Source: Clostridiales bacterium (GTDB lineage: Bacteria > Bacillota > Clostridia > Christensenellales > Aristaeellaceae). From it: 32,973 bases of DNA. Made by a program: the position numbers and the translations under genes. A model generated the notes under the pieces. It was not told the DNA's origin. It was given only the letters and a program-made list of their open reading frames with translations, and did not search any database. The DNA is taken from NCBI GenBank assembly GCA_015056265.1, contig SVGR01000013.1, positions 1 to 32,973 of the forward strand, read 5' to 3'. Shown in pieces: positions 10,051 to 32,935 of the stretch; within the stretch, counting starts at the first letter, position 1; every line of letters begins with the position of its first letter.

Positions 10051-11025
10051 TCATTTATTCCAATTGTTGGCCACCTGGCGCCGCAAAGCGTCTATACTCT
10101 CTCCATCCCGGATGCGCCGGGCGATGAGTACCCTACGCTCGGTGCTATCATCCACGCAAGTCACCAGCAGCAGCAATTGATCCTGGGGCTGTACATCCAC
10201 ATGATTCATGTATACCGATTGCTTCATCAGCTGATCCATGGCCTCCTGCCGCCAAGCGATGGTGGAGGAAGAAAGCCGGGCCAGATCCACATATTTGCGA
10301 TTGCCCCGGATGGTGCTGATGGTGCCCACTCCCAGGATCACATACTGCCCGTCCTCATAGACGGTATCGAAGGTGATGAATGGATTGGTGTGATAATAAT
10401 TGGCATTCTCATAATTGCGCAGGAAGCCAAACATTTCCCCCGTCTTCATATTGTGCCCGTAAAGGATCATAGTATAGGGACGGGTTTTCAGATTGCAGGT
10501 TTCCTCCAGGAAAATGGCGCCGTTCACATTATGCCGGCCCTGATAATCCCGGCGGAGATAATATTCATTATCCCGCTGCACCACGGCTTGATCGATAATG
10601 CCGGGAATGGTGATCCAGCCCATGATATCCTTATTCTGATTGCGGATATTTTTAAACCGGCTGCGGATAATGGCTCGTTCATTGGTGGGATAACGAAGAG
10701 CGGGCAGCAGCAGCTGATCATGCACCGCCTGCACCTGCTTACTGATGGTGGGCTGGGGGGAGGCGGCAGGAACGGCGGTGGGCGTAGGCATTTGAGAGGA
10801 ATCAGGGGCCTGGGTTTCATCGGCCTGATAATACAACGCCTGTAACTGGGCATTGCCCTGGCGGGTGGAAAAATAATCGGAGAGATAGGAAATCAATTTC
10901 CATGCGCTGAAAAGAAGAACGGCCGCCAGCACTGCCGCCAAAACAAGCACCCACCGGCCCTTTTTCGGTCGGGAAGGAACATAATAATTGCGGGCACGGT
11001 TTCCTCTGGACAGCCGTCTCTTCAT
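10051..11025 (-). CDS. Class B sortase
   Basis: N-terminal TM; ILYGHNMKTGEMFGFL (catalytic His) and LLLLVTCVDDSTERRVLIARR (TxxTC-type Cys and Arg). Sortase B architecture. Confidence 0.93.
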   Translation of the reverse strand: MKRRLSRGNRARNYYVPSRPKKGRWVLVLAAVLAAVLLFSAWKLISYLSDYFSTRQGNAQLQALYYQADETQAPDSSQMPTPTAVPAASPQPTISKQVQAVHDQLLLPALRYPTNERAIIRSRFKNIRNQNKDIMGWITIPGIIDQAVVQRDNEYYLRRDYQGRHNVNGAIFLEETCNLKTRPYTMILYGHNMKTGEMFGFLRNYENANYYHTNPFITFDTVYEDGQYVILGVGTISTIRGNRKYVDLARLSSSTIAWRQEAMDQLMKQSVYMNHVDVQPQDQLLLLVTCVDDSTERRVLIARRIRDGESIDALRRQVANNWNK

Positions 11026-11087
11026 GCTTGATTCCTCATTATCCTGCGCGCTTCAGGCCAGGCGCTCTGCTGTTTTTGCCTGGTTTC

Positions 11088-12203
11088 TTATTGACCGGGG
11101 TTCTGACCCCGGCGGCGGGGCGGCGGGGCCTGCTGATAATCCTGCTGGGGATAGCTCTGCTGGGGCTGCTGGGCATAGCCCTGCTGATAGCCCTGCTGCG
11201 GCTGCGCATACTGCTGGGGCTGCTGGGCGTAGCCCTGCTGCTGATAGCCCTGCTGCGGCTGCGCATACTGCTGGGGCTGCTGGGCATAGCCCTGCTGCTG
11301 ATAGCCCTGCTGCGGCTGCACATACTGCTGGGCATAGCCCTGCTGCTGATAGCCCTGCTGCGACGGGGCATACTGCTGGGGCTGCTGGGCATAGCCCTGC
11401 TGCTGATAACCCTGCTGCGACGGGGCGTACTGCTGGGGCTGCTGGGCATAGCCCTGCTGCTGGGGGTACTGCTGATAGCCCTGCGGATACCCTTGCTGCT
11501 GATAATCATAGCCCTGCTGGGGATAGCCATAGCCCTGCGGATACTGCTGGTATCCCTGCTGAGGATAGGTATTCTGCGCAAAAGCATCGGCCTTGGGCTC
11601 TTTGAACAGGGGCTTTTTGATCAGCTTCATGCTCAGATCATTGATCTTTCTCTGCAGAGGGCTGAGGGGCTTGGGCTGCTGGGGCTGCTCTCCCTTTTTG
11701 CCGTTGGTCATCTTATCGGTATAGAAAACAAAGCCGATCATCAGGGCGCTGACCAGGATGGCCACATAGATGCCGGGGGGATTCTGGATATATTCCGCCA
11801 CATGGCCCAGCGCCGGCACGGAAAAGACAACCTTACCAATCAGGTTGTTCTTGCCCACCAGTTCACTGTCCGTATGATCATTGGCATCGCCCTTGGTGCG
11901 GAACTGATATTCGTTGGGATTGGTTTCGCTGGGCACCTTTTCCACGATACGGTGGGTGGCCACGGTCTTGCCGCCATTCATGCGGAAGGTGATAACGTCA
12001 TTGACCTCCAGGCTGTTGTGATCCACTTTTTTTACATAGATCAGTGAACCCACTTTATAGGTGGGCTCCATGGAGCCGCTGAGCACCCCGTATACCTGCA
12101 CCCCAAAGATCCGGATCCCGGAAATGAAGAATGCAAACAAAATGGCCACAACGACCATCAAGGTGGTGATCGTCTTGAGCATCTTTTTCTTACTCTCGTT
12201 CAA
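11088..12203 (-). CDS. SipW-like (ER/archaeal-type) signal peptidase I with long Q/Y/G-rich C-terminal tail
   Basis: [32 protein letters not shown] (His in place of Lys), [14 protein letters not shown], two TM segments, then [17 protein letters not shown] repeats. Start assigned to TTG at 12203 (or ATG at 12182); the longer ORF N-terminus lacks support. Confidence 0.9.
11130..11575 (-). repeat. In-frame ~57-bp tandem repeat encoding [[19 protein letters not shown]]-like 19-aa units
   Basis: Visible period such as ctgctggggctgctgggcatagccctgctgctgatagccctgctgcg...; about five near-complete units plus degenerate flanks. Confidence 0.9.
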
Positions 12204-13413: not shown

Positions 13414-14130
13414 ATGGCAATGTGGAATCCATGGAGAGGTTGCAAAAAGTGCAGCGATGGCTGTCTCTATTGCTATATCCACAAGGGCGACGCAAAGCGC
13501 GGAATTGATACGAATATTATCGAAAAGACAAAGGATTTTGCAAAACCCGTCGAACGCCTAAAAAACAGCAATTACAAAATGAAATCCGGCATTGTCTATA
13601 CCTGCTTTTCTACCGATTTTCTGATTGAGGAAGCGGATGCGTGGCGTCCCGAATGCTGGCAGATGATAAAAGAGCGAGAGGATTGCACGTTTCTCTTTCT
13701 CACAAAGCGAATCGACAGATTTATGGACTGTATTCCCGACAATTGGGGCGACGGTTATGAAAACGTTGTCGTTTGTTGCACAGTCGAGAACCAAAAGAAC
13801 GCAGATTATAAGCTCGGTATATTTTCAAAGCTCCCAATCAAGCATAAATGTATCACGGCTCAGCCACTTATAGAAGCCATTGACATAGAACGGTATCTTG
13901 ACGGCATCGAGCTTGTGGTTGTCGGCGGTGAATCAGATACGAATGCAAGACCGCTTGATTACGATTGGGTGATTGATATCAGAAAGCAGTGCATGAGGAA
14001 AAACGTGTCGTTTGAATTCAGACAGTGCGGAACGCATTTCATCAAGGGCGGCAAGGAGTATAAATTGCAGACGAAGGATTTGTGTGCTCAGGCAAGAAAA
14101 GAGGATATCGACTTTAAGCGCAATAGTTGA
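13414..14130 (+). CDS. DUF5131 / phage Gp37-Gp68-like family protein (radical-SAM-like Cys cluster)
   Basis: MAMWNPWRGCKKCSDGCLYCYIHKG...FLTKRIDRF...VVVGGESDTNARPLDYDWVIDIRKQC: WNPwxGC.k.S.GC..CYa-type N-terminus and GGES..ARP motif. RBS AGGTGA upstream. Confidence 0.85.
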   Translation: MAMWNPWRGCKKCSDGCLYCYIHKGDAKRGIDTNIIEKTKDFAKPVERLKNSNYKMKSGIVYTCFSTDFLIEEADAWRPECWQMIKEREDCTFLFLTKRIDRFMDCIPDNWGDGYENVVVCCTVENQKNADYKLGIFSKLPIKHKCITAQPLIEAIDIERYLDGIELVVVGGESDTNARPLDYDWVIDIRKQCMRKNVSFEFRQCGTHFIKGGKEYKLQTKDLCAQARKEDIDFKRNS

Positions 14131-16186: not shown

Positions 16187-19100
16187 TTACTTGGTTCCGC
16201 TCTGGGAGTGGCTGTAGGCATACTGGATAGCCTCCTGATGGCCGAACCAGCCGTTGATGGCTGCAGAGGTATCGACATGGGCGGGGCTATCCTTGCTGCC
16301 GTGGGTCATACTGTTCACAAAGTGGATACAGAACTGGCCGGTGTAGCCGTTATCGGGGATTCGGTCGCCACCGGGGTTATGGGGAATGCCGTACATGGAG
16401 GCCGCGAAGGTGCGCCCGCCGATGGTCACCCACAGGGGACGGCGGCGATAAGACTGCAGTTCCTGCTCACGGTCGTCGATTTCCTGAGGCGTGCTGACGC
16501 CGTAAATGCGGCAGATGGCTGCGGTATCTTCCGTGGTCTTGGGCTCACAGTCAGCGTGGTTATCGCCGTAGAGCCGCTGAGCGCGGAAGGAGATACCGGT
16601 GTAAACGTCGGTGACGATGGCAACGGTGCCCACGCTGTAGATACTCTGGATGCCGCCCTTGAACCAATCGATCTTTTCTACGGGGTAGAGCACGGGGGTC
16701 ACAGTGCCGCCGGTGTAGGTGCCTTCGGGCACGGTGCCGAAGAGGGCATGCTGGGTATTTTCACCGGCGATGCCGTCCACGGTGAGCTTGCCGTGGGCAC
16801 GCTGGAAAGCGATAACCGCCTGACGGGTGCTCTCGTAATAGGTGCCGGTCACTTCGCTGGCGGCCAGATAGCCCTTTTCGACCAGCTTCTGCTGCAGCTT
16901 GGTCACCGCATCACCGGTGGACAGCAGCGTTAGCGTGGTGTAGGAGGCTTCGGGAGCGGAATCGGGATTGCCGGTCATATTGTACATGGCCTTTTCATCC
17001 TCGGTGAGGATACGCACGCAGTCGCCGCGCATCCAGCCGGTAACACCGCCGTACTTGACCTTGAACCAGTTATAGGTGCCCTGTTCATCCACCACATTCA
17101 GCCGGTAATCCTTCAGATAGGTCACCTTGGTGCCGGGGGTGTAAACCAGGCTCAGCTCAGCGCCCTTCATGGTGGCGGCGCCGCGGATCTTTACCCGCTC
17201 CACGGTGGTCAGGCCCATATCACTGAGGGTGGACAGATCAGGCAGGGGAGTGGGCGTGGGGGTGGCCAGGCCGGGATTGGCGGCCATATAATCGGCATAT
17301 TCCGCATTGGTCAGCACCCGGACGTAATCGCCATGGAGATAGCCGGTCTTGCCCTCATGCTGGATTTCATACCAGGTGATGGAAGTGCCGTTGGAATTCT
17401 TCACTTCGTTCTTGCCGTAGAACTTGGTCACAGTGCCCAGACGCAGCTGACCCAGGGTGCCGGCCTTGGTGCTTTCATCCGCACGCACCCACAGCTTGTC
17501 GCCGGTGGTGATGATGTAATCACTGTTGCCAGGCTTGGGAGTAGCGGGGCCGGGGGTGGGAGAGGGGCATACGCCGTACTGATTGTAATAATCCAACTGC
17601 CACTGGGCCAGTTCGAACACCATATCGCCGCGGATATAGCCCCGGGTGCCGTCATTGAGCTGAACAGGATACCAGGAATAGCTGCTGCCGTAGGGAGTCA
17701 CCTTAGCGCCGGTGAGGGGCAGCACGGTACCCTTGGCATACACCTTGCCGCAGGTGGCGGACTGGGTATCGGTGTCCGAACGCACCCAGACAGAGCTCAT
17801 CACCGTGGCCACATAGCCGGTGATGGCGGCATCAGGGCCGGGGGTAACGGCGGGAGCAGGCGTGGCGATAATGGCATTGCCGTAGGCATCGCATTCCACA
17901 GCCATGGAAGCCAGCACGAAGCCATAGGTGCCCAGCTTGGCAGAGTAGATATCATACCACTTTTCGCTGCCGTTCATCTTGACGCCCAGGCAGGGCAGGA
18001 TGGTGCCCTTATCCAGCTGACCGTAAGAAGTGCCCCAGGGATTATTGCGTACATTCACGCCGCCCTTGATCAGCTTGATATAGGTCTGGGTAGAAACGGA
18101 AGGATCATTGGTAGCGGAAGGACCGGAGGGCACAGGCGTGGCGATCACAGGATTGCCGGCGTTATCGCACTGCACATAGCAGTCGGAGCGCACATAACCA
18201 GTGATGCCATTGATGGGGCTGGTCACCTTGATCCAGCCATCGCTGTCGGGACCTTCGGTATAGCGCAGCACCAGGCCCAGGGGCAGCTTATCCTGATCCT
18301 TGGGGGTGAGGGAGGTGCCGCCGGGGGTTCTGCGGATATTGACGGAAGTCTTGATGATCTTGGCCCAGCCGGTGCCGGTGTAGGGAGGCGCAGGGCTGGG
18401 GGTCACGGTGGGAGCGGGGGCGGAGGGCAGGGTGAAATTACCCAGTTCGTCCTTGGTCAGCACCCGCAGAGCGGTGGCTTCCACATAGCCGAACACGCCG
18501 TTATATTCGATATAATACCAATCGCTGACAGAGGAGCCGGCAGGGCGCTTGATGATATTGACCACGGTATTGGACAGCAGGGCGGTAACAGCTTCGCCGT
18601 TGGGCTCCCGGCGGACGTTGATACCGTTGATGATGATCACGGCATAATTACTGTCCGTTTCGGGCACGGTGGAGCCGGCATTGCCGCCGGAAACCAGGTT
18701 GAGGTAATCACCGTGGATATAACCGGTATGGGAGGCGTTGGGATTGGCAGGAGTGCCACCCTTGACCTGGTACCACAGGGTATTGGTGGTTTCATCCCAA
18801 TCGGCGCGGAGCACCTGCACCATCCAGTTATAGGGCAAAATGTACCAGTAGCCGGCTTCAGTGCTGGAATCCTTGCGGAAGAACACCCGATCGGTATTGG
18901 TGCGGCCGTAGGTATTATCGTCATACACCACGGATCCTTCGGGCCGGGGAATGGCGGTGGAGCCGGGGGCAGGGGTGGGGGCGGGGGTAGAAGCGGGGGC
19001 GCTCACTTCGTTGCCCAGTTCGTCACAATATACGAAGCAGTCGGAACGCACATAGCCTTCCATGCCATGGTAGGACACCTTCGCCCAGGTATACTGCTTG

Positions 19101-20218
19101 GAATTGGTATCCAGAGCGGTATAGCCCAGCACCAGGCCCTTGGGCATCTTATCGTAATAGTTGAGCACGTTGCCGGCAGGGGACTGACGCAGGAACACAT
19201 CATCCTCAATCAGGCGGATATAGCCGATATAGACGCCGGGCACGGGGGTGGGGGCAGCGGTGGCGCCGGGAGCGACAACTTCATTGCCCAGTTCATCACA
19301 TTCCACGAAGCAATCGGAACGGATATAGCCCACATAGCTGCCGTAGGTCACCTTCACCCAGCGGTAATTACCGATGCGGCCGGCGTCTTCAGTATAGCCG
19401 ATCACCAGGCCCTGGGGCAGACGATCGTTATCGTTGATAACGGTGCCGCCGGGAGATACGCGCACGGCCACCTTATCCAGCGTCAGCTTCACATAGCCGA
19501 TCACAGTGGAAGAAGCGGGGGGCGTGGTCTGCTGACTGCCGCCTTCTTCGGGCAGGGGCTGGCCGTACACGTCGGTCTTGATATAGCAGTCGGATCGCAC
19601 ATAGCCTGCCATGCCGTTATAGACCACCTGCACCCAGTCATAGCCCAGATATCCTTTGGTTTCGGAATAATAAGTAAGCACCAGGCCCTGGGGCAACTTG
19701 TCCGCGTTCTTTTCGGTGAGCACGGTGCCGGCGGGGGTGGCCCGCAGATTCACCAGATCATCGATAAGACGAACAAAGCCAAGGCCGGCACCCAAATCAG
19801 GGGCGCCGCCGCCTTCGCCTTCACCGGGCTGAGAAGAGCCGGCAGGAACGTAGGGTTGCACAGGGTTGGCAAGCCAGGCGGATTGTTCTTCCGTCGTCAT
19901 CAGCTGCATAAAATCCCCGCGGATATAGCCGGTTTCCCCGTTTGCAGGGTTCTTGGCCTGATACCACAGGTGGCCGCCATAGCTGGTCTGGCCCAGAATC
20001 TGCAGCACCCAGCCTTCATCCAGCCGATCCACATAATTGGAAGAGCCGGGCGCAGGCCGGAAATTGACCACACGATCCTTGGTGTCATTATTGATCACCA
20101 GATAACCGTACTGATCAACGGCTTCCCCTGCAAGAGCAGAGAAAGGCGCCATGGGCAGTACCATCGCTACCAGCAATACCAGCGCCAGCAGCCGGGCAGA
20201 CATACTACGTTTCTTCAT
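16187..20218 (-). CDS. Large secreted SH3-repeat protein with peptidoglycan-binding domain and unassigned C-terminal domain
   Basis: Signal peptide MKKRSMSARLLALVLLVAMVLPMAPFSALAGE; about 11 SH3_3-like repeats (VNLRATPAGTVL...W..V.Y.G..GYVRSDC) with Pro/Thr/Ala linkers; PG_binding_1 segment TKLQQKLVEKGYLAASEVTGTYYESTRQAVIAFQRAHGKLTVDGIAGENTQHALFG; C-terminal ~170 aa ending in GQFCIHFVNSMTHGSKD. Confidence 0.9.
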   Translation of the reverse strand: MKKRSMSARLLALVLLVAMVLPMAPFSALAGEAVDQYGYLVINNDTKDRVVNFRPAPGSSNYVDRLDEGWVLQILGQTSYGGHLWYQAKNPANGETGYIRGDFMQLMTTEEQSAWLANPVQPYVPAGSSQPGEGEGGGAPDLGAGLGFVRLIDDLVNLRATPAGTVLTEKNADKLPQGLVLTYYSETKGYLGYDWVQVVYNGMAGYVRSDCYIKTDVYGQPLPEEGGSQQTTPPASSTVIGYVKLTLDKVAVRVSPGGTVINDNDRLPQGLVIGYTEDAGRIGNYRWVKVTYGSYVGYIRSDCFVECDELGNEVVAPGATAAPTPVPGVYIGYIRLIEDDVFLRQSPAGNVLNYYDKMPKGLVLGYTALDTNSKQYTWAKVSYHGMEGYVRSDCFVYCDELGNEVSAPASTPAPTPAPGSTAIPRPEGSVVYDDNTYGRTNTDRVFFRKDSSTEAGYWYILPYNWMVQVLRADWDETTNTLWYQVKGGTPANPNASHTGYIHGDYLNLVSGGNAGSTVPETDSNYAVIIINGINVRREPNGEAVTALLSNTVVNIIKRPAGSSVSDWYYIEYNGVFGYVEATALRVLTKDELGNFTLPSAPAPTVTPSPAPPYTGTGWAKIIKTSVNIRRTPGGTSLTPKDQDKLPLGLVLRYTEGPDSDGWIKVTSPINGITGYVRSDCYVQCDNAGNPVIATPVPSGPSATNDPSVSTQTYIKLIKGGVNVRNNPWGTSYGQLDKGTILPCLGVKMNGSEKWYDIYSAKLGTYGFVLASMAVECDAYGNAIIATPAPAVTPGPDAAITGYVATVMSSVWVRSDTDTQSATCGKVYAKGTVLPLTGAKVTPYGSSYSWYPVQLNDGTRGYIRGDMVFELAQWQLDYYNQYGVCPSPTPGPATPKPGNSDYIITTGDKLWVRADESTKAGTLGQLRLGTVTKFYGKNEVKNSNGTSITWYEIQHEGKTGYLHGDYVRVLTNAEYADYMAANPGLATPTPTPLPDLSTLSDMGLTTVERVKIRGAATMKGAELSLVYTPGTKVTYLKDYRLNVVDEQGTYNWFKVKYGGVTGWMRGDCVRILTEDEKAMYNMTGNPDSAPEASYTTLTLLSTGDAVTKLQQKLVEKGYLAASEVTGTYYESTRQAVIAFQRAHGKLTVDGIAGENTQHALFGTVPEGTYTGGTVTPVLYPVEKIDWFKGGIQSIYSVGTVAIVTDVYTGISFRAQRLYGDNHADCEPKTTEDTAAICRIYGVSTPQEIDDREQELQSYRRRPLWVTIGGRTFAASMYGIPHNPGGDRIPDNGYTGQFCIHFVNSMTHGSKDSPAHVDTSAAINGWFGHQEAIQYAYSHSQSGTK

Positions 20219-20393
20219 AACCGTACACCCCATCCAATTTTTCATTGGCAGCGCAGGCGTATCCCGCGCCAAATTTTTGGACACAAAAAGAATCATAAAT
20301 TCCCTCTCATGCATTGTATTACATTTTTGTTACGAGGTCAAGTGTTTTTATTAAAAAATTTGCATGTTTTGTTGATTTATGCGTTTCATTTGC

Positions 20394-32602: not shown

Positions 32603-32935
32603 TGCGGGGCTCTGCGCCCCGCGCCCCCACCAGGGGCATCGCCCCTGGACCCGACTTCGGACTGGGAGAAACTTGATCGACATACAATTTCCCGATGGGG
32701 CAAAAGGGAAACGCTGCGGAGCTCTGCGCCCCGCGCCCCACCAGGGGCATCGCCCCTGGACCCGACTTCGGACTGGGAGAAACTTGATCGACATACAATT
32801 TCCCGATGGGGCAAAAGGGAAACGCTGCGGGGCTCTGCGCCCCGCACCCCCACCAGGGGCATCGCCCCTGGACCCGTCCTCGGACGGAGAAAACTTAATT
32901 AACTAACAACTTCCCGATGAGGCAAGAAGAACGGA
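32603..32935. repeat. Three tandem copies of a 111-112 bp GC-rich hairpin-containing unit
   Basis: Units begin TGCGGGGCTCTGCGCCCCGC at 32603, 32715 and 32826; each carries CCAGGGGC-atc-GCCCCTGG. Third copy diverges in its 3' half. Confidence 0.93.

Follow-up and report, generated by a model that had tools for sequence, protein, structure and literature searches.

Background

SipW of Bacillus subtilis, encoded in tapA-sipW-tasA, is an ER-type signal peptidase dedicated to the SipW-type signal peptides of matrix proteins (PMC4551309, PMC12445088). A SipW-type peptidase is also encoded in the srtB / sipW-bsaABCRSD locus of Clostridium perfringens, where a sortase gene adjoins the peptidase gene and the substrates form polymers (PMC7395162).

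Here we describe a related enzyme from a window of 32,973 nucleotides, i.e. the whole stretch of contig SVGR01000013.1 that was analysed, from the draft genome of a Clostridiales bacterium (GCA_015056265.1). Like B. subtilis SipW it is an ER-type signal peptidase with a Ser/His active site, and it ends in a low-complexity tail of ~160 residues, mainly Q, Y, G, P and A. We know of no long Q/Y tail in B. subtilis SipW. The available portion of PMC7395162 makes no mention of a Q/Y tail in the C. perfringens enzyme, and a search of the literature outside subscription journals found no signal peptidases with such tails. The window's genome differs from B. subtilis in having numerous substrates, which are encoded at dispersed sites and in many cases are large. 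The locus is similar to that of C. perfringens in that a sortase gene adjoins the gene of the SipW-type peptidase, and unlike it in that the substrates are encoded outside the sipW operon.

Gene structure and signal peptidase core

The features of the locus are collected in Table 1. The frame encodes 371 aa when read from the TTG and 364 aa from the in-frame ATG at 12182. A GGCGGG-type ribosome-binding site lies 5' of the TTG, and GTG or TTG is found at the equivalent position in many orthologues. The signal peptidase gene reported in the initial annotation is real and its coordinates are right, on the minus strand. A DNA-repeat artefact or a frame error was ruled out, as each of the 20 orthologues described below keeps the frame open and the codons vary among them. 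The long antisense open reading frame at 11028-12047 is a mere mirror of the repeats.

Table 1. Features of the sipW locus in the window; residue numbers count from the ATG at 12182, and membrane sidedness is predicted.
Feature	Coordinates	Strand	Remarks
SipW-type signal peptidase gene	11088..12203	-	TTG at 12203 to TAA stop ending at 11088
TM1, residues 2-25	12108..12179	-	AF2 helix 2-25; hydropathy peak 2.6
Extracellular catalytic domain	11775..12107	-	Ser37 12072-12074, His77 11952-11954, Asp99 11886-11888, Asp105 11868-11870
TM2, residues 137-160	11703..11774	-	AF2 helix; brings the chain back to the cytosol
Short cytosolic helix, residues 175-188	11619..11660	-	AF2 helix, pLDDT about 90
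Disordered Q/Y/G/P/A tail, residues 206-364	11091..11567	-	pLDDT mostly < 50
Basic C-terminal tip, 12 residues	11091..11126	-	Arg cluster ends most orthologous tails
Sortase, class B-like	10051..11025	-	62 bp downstream of sipW, same strand

The first ~160 residues of the product form an ER/archaeal-type signal peptidase, with profile scores of 96.7 bits for TIGR02228 (cut-off 51.85) and 28.4 bits for PF10502 (cut-off 22.9). The equivalog profile of Bacillus SipW, NF046067, scores 95.6 bits, under its cut-off of 190 bits, and we therefore call the enzyme SipW-type rather than SipW. The core motifs, SGSMEPT with Ser37, THRIV with His77 in place of Lys, and GDANDHTD with Asp99 and Asp105, hold up across an alignment of 28 relatives: no substitution of Ser37, His77 or Asp105 occurs, and Asp99 is nearly invariant. 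The catalytic Ser is paired with His rather than Lys, together with Asp, as in the ER/archaeal type. Foldseek gave 7p2q and 7p2p as the top matches (E 5e-7 and 2e-6), a SEC11-like fold, and hmmsearch against the PDB reached E 4e-13, with human SEC11C/SEC11A being the best by both fold and profile. The genome has a second and stronger signal peptidase match (L001), which is taken as an ordinary signal peptidase I.

Elsewhere in the window we observed a probably secreted protein of 1375 aa at 16187-20314 (minus strand), apparently made up of many SH3-like repeats and a peptidoglycan-binding-like region; a DUF5131 protein at 13414-14130 (plus strand), which also matches radical SAM mobile pair protein A weakly; and, close to the end of the contig, a 111-bp tandem repeat at 32603-32925 (2.9 copies, 92%), which can be read through in several frames.

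Membrane topology

Hydropathy and the AlphaFold2 (AF2) model concur on the order of TM1, a beta catalytic domain, TM2, a short helix and the tail. Besides being modelled as a helix, TM2 contains an unbroken stretch of 18-20 hydrophobic residues in every one of the 20 tailed orthologues, with net positive charge mostly after it. In human SEC11 the equivalent C-terminal (CTS) helix of ~20 residues has been traced across the membrane (PMC13385932). The window enzyme is thus like SEC11A/SEC11C in fold, profile and C-terminal TM helix. It is unlike them in being a single-polypeptide bacterial enzyme without SPC subunits, and the SEC11 chains, of about 200 aa, have no such low-complexity tail. Because TM2 is found in all orthologues and the CTS helix offers a precedent, the tail is most likely cytosolic. 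This is a strong prediction, and both the second TM and the cytoplasmic tail that the initial annotation had proposed agree with it.

A segment like helix 175-188 is present in most tailed orthologues. It is amphipathic in the window protein (moment 0.65), and several orthologues have a low moment or none, so that an amphipathic membrane-surface helix kept in all of them was not upheld.

Composition of the tail

Past the end of TM2, Q accounts for 37% of the residues, Y for 14%, P for 13% and G for 10%; charges are few, and an aromatic residue occurs on average every 5.3 residues. The underlying DNA is a tandem array with a 57-bp unit (5.6 copies; TRF score 458, 88% match), accompanied by degenerate repeats. 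Its Gln codons are CAG and CAA in the ratio 70:2, and such near-pure CAG (70/72) fits a recent repeat expansion in the window gene. Among the other proteins of the same genome, no matching Q/Y tail was found.

The description of the tail as prion-like stands in part. The tail is Q/N-rich (45% Q+N) and disordered, with a negative FoldIndex throughout in addition to the low pLDDT. A strict prion label is weak: the PAPA-type score, which comes from our re-implementation and is indicative only, is 0.043, just under the threshold of 0.05, and varies from -0.13 to 0.08 among the orthologues, and prolines are many. The latter make amyloid-type behaviour unlikely as a conserved property. Q/Y/G-rich, prion-like domains that form condensates occur in proteins such as FUS and Sup35. 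The window tail is like these domains in its disorder, high Q, evenly spaced tyrosines and few charges. It is unlike them in its much higher proline content, in an indicative PAPA-type score below the threshold and in being tethered to a bacterial membrane enzyme, and its assembly is hypothetical. Disorder with spaced aromatics is the conserved property of the tails, and a sticker-and-spacer description fits better than the prion label.

Conservation and origin of the tail

We surveyed 308 genomes of the same family and found 20 tailed orthologues in 19 of them. A scan of genome contigs gave matches with an alignment as the query and none with a single sequence. Their cores are 53-70% identical to that of the window protein and form one clade in a maximum-likelihood core tree (support 100/99). 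The clade consists of MAGs, many of them of ruminant-gut origin (goat, sheep and deer in the named records). The tail after TM2 is long in all 20 orthologues, and Q+Y+G+P make up 52-75% of it in 19 of them, so its presence in close orthologues is confirmed and its make-up is not due to chance. The repeat units vary among the tails, e.g. GYAQQSGYAQQ, YPQGYAQQQ, PPMNPGYPPQQQ and YPQQMQQ.

Among the best 80 GTDB loci, the 14 that belong to the tailed clade all have a long tail. Only two of the other 66 (L128 and L143) reach at least 50% Q+Y+G+P, with Q/P-rich tails that are almost without Tyr, and most of the 66 have short Lys/Glu-rich tails. In relatives from the same order but from other families, the tails measure 9-95 residues and never exceed 30% Q+Y+G+P. 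By these sequence comparisons, the tail arose once within the family. A second SipW-type clade in the family is untailed (L072, L073, L075, L076, L078, L080 and L081); in several of its members a charged segment is inserted ahead of the GDAN motif, and the genomes of the clade have only small SipW-type substrates.

Depending on the orthologue, CAA makes up between 0 and at least a third of the Gln codons. Since CAG and CAA are mixed in many of them, the make-up of the tail outlives the DNA repeat, which favours selection on the protein, short of proof. We infer, with fairly strong confidence, that the tail is under selection; its make-up persisted although the individual letters did not, and a role of some kind is therefore probable. 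Of the rivals to the export-site reading given below, a tolerated, drifting repeat is the strongest. According to this explanation a CAG-rich array expanded once in an ancestor and has since drifted in length and unit as a near-neutral tail, tolerated because it is placed past the last functional part. The tandem array with its recent-looking copies is consistent with drift, and so is the tail length beyond residue 200, which ranges from 97 to 243 aa. The same is true of one orthologue (L070/L095 in G223), which lost the Q/Y make-up (Q+Y+G+P 29%) and kept a long tail, with an RRRR cluster near the end; the genome of this orthologue has a single TIGR04088 match, a small protein. Drift is harder to reconcile with a make-up kept in 19 of the 20 tails despite the divergence of the cores and synonymous change, with the Arg-rich tip retained in most, and with the short, charged tails of relatives outside the clade. 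We regard near-neutral drift as somewhat doubtful and selection on the tail as the preferred reading.

Candidate substrates and the neighbouring sortase

The enzyme is probably dedicated to surface or matrix proteins, as predicted from the analogous enzymes of B. subtilis and C. perfringens. The window's genome encodes 14 proteins with SipW-type signal peptides (TIGR04088 matches over the cut-off). Such matches are present in 18 of the 19 tailed-enzyme genomes versus 12 of the 289 others (Fisher p 2.7e-20, with kinship ignored), and eight of these 12 carry an untailed SipW-type paralogue. The one tailed-enzyme genome without a match (G002) encodes an adjoining FctA-domain protein with a SipW-like N-terminal signal peptide. 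In 18 of the 20 tailed loci sipW lies near SipW-type substrate genes, and among the neighbours tested are proteins of the camelysin type (PF12389), adhesive proteins with a pectate-lyase-like domain (PF20585) and FctA pilins (PF12892). A link of the enzyme to surface fibres or adhesins, of the kind suggested at the outset for pili, is plausible as sipW stands beside camelysin/TasA-like and adhesin genes in these loci; the PF12389 and PF20585 domains indicate relatedness only. In the window and in a sister species (G001), sipW is located between purC and the sortase gene, apart from substrate genes. The TIGR04088 search found no SipW-type substrate genes on the window contig.

The open frames of the substrates have a median of 532 aa in the tailed genomes, with up to 11 of at least 400 aa, versus a median of 242 aa and none above 347 aa in genomes with an untailed paralogue only. 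This comparison is close to a single contrast between two clades, with p-values that ignore relatedness, and the link between tail and substrate size is suggestive. Substrates of about 450-800 aa are encoded at L045:2133-3665, L051:3154-4644 and related loci, and in some of them a camelysin-like head is followed by an adhesive domain of the pectate-lyase-like kind. SipW-dependent adhesins thus apparently form a large class in the family.

The initial annotation had also raised the possibility that the peptidase clusters together with the sortase encoded next to it. This sortase scores 32.7 bits for PF04203 (cut-off 26.6) and 131.2 bits for the class B profile TIGR03064, under the cut-off of 153.75, and it is the only PF04203 match in the 78%-complete draft genome. 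Two FctA-like pilin proteins of the window's genome (L206:1330-1965 and L207:1270-1962, on contigs C106 and C122 of G000) combine a SipW-like signal peptide with a sorting signal of the PPDTGD...K/R type. On paper they need both SipW and sortase, which makes a shared pathway plausible. A sorting signal at the end is found in none of the 14 TIGR04088 substrates (0/14). Sortases of this kind are found in 215 of the 308 family genomes, mostly far from sipW; the adjacency is common only to the sister species, and the two genes are within 6.4 kb in one more genome. A tight sipW-sortase unit as a general rule is ruled out. In C. perfringens, srtB beside sipW was dispensable for BsaA polymers and also for the pellicle (PMC7395162).

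Possible roles of the tail

The tail is not needed for catalysis, as SipW is functional in both B. subtilis and C. perfringens and nearly all relatives from outside the clade are short-tailed. We tentatively favour a putative membrane-tethered multivalent tail that concentrates the SipW-type peptidase at export sites. The enzyme would remove the signal peptides from preproteins of the camelysin/TasA-like and adhesin kinds on their emergence from Sec. Its catalytic domain would be outside, and TM2 would return the chain to the cytosol, where the short helix would lead into the disordered tail. With its evenly spaced tyrosines and basic tip, the tail might act as a multivalent sticker-and-spacer chain, in weak multivalent contact with its own kind, with the export machinery or with both, and the enzyme would thus be concentrated where many, often large, substrates exit the Sec channel. 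The large substrates of the tailed genomes are in line with this, and so is the single small TIGR04088 match in G223, where the tail lost its Q/Y make-up. Clustering is our best guess at the function of the tail, with weak to moderate confidence. Localised secretion or processing has precedents in the ExPortal and in SpsB at the septum (review PMC12445088). It is doubtful that a putative condensate-forming tail goes as far as to build a dedicated cytosolic-side export/processing patch for large SipW-dependent adhesins.

Instead of binding itself, the tail might dock to a specific partner through Pro/Tyr/Arg motifs and the short helix, and the Sec translocase, SecA, the ribosome, nucleic acid or a cytoskeletal element could be proposed as such a partner. 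The helix-like segment, the 'RQGYVPGQ'-like start of the tail in many orthologues and the basic C-terminal tip would suit docking, which we consider unlikely given that no short motif is common to all 20 tails and that the units differ between genera. It is very unlikely that the tail is a signalling device, reporting the state of enzyme or substrate to matrix gene expression: its cytosolic position would allow this, the dispersed substrate genes of the window's genome would need co-ordination and B. subtilis SipW was reportedly described as bifunctional by Terra et al. in 2012, but no evident regulator adjoins the gene within the window. That TM2 does not span the membrane and an extracellular tail binds the cell wall or matrix, as a basic Q/P/Y-rich sequence could conceivably do with wall polymers, is extremely improbable in view of the strong TM2 in all 20 orthologues, the positive charge mostly just after it and the SEC11 CTS helix that crosses the membrane (PMC13385932).

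If the tail does concentrate the peptidase at export sites, a low-complexity domain would organise part of the bacterial Sec pathway, and the finding bears on whether low-complexity domains organise bacterial protein export. The clade offers a natural series for this, in which a well-understood enzyme occurs in tailed, untailed and degraded-tail versions with recognisable substrates. Candidate SipW-dependent adhesins of ruminant-gut Clostridia are marked out by it as well.
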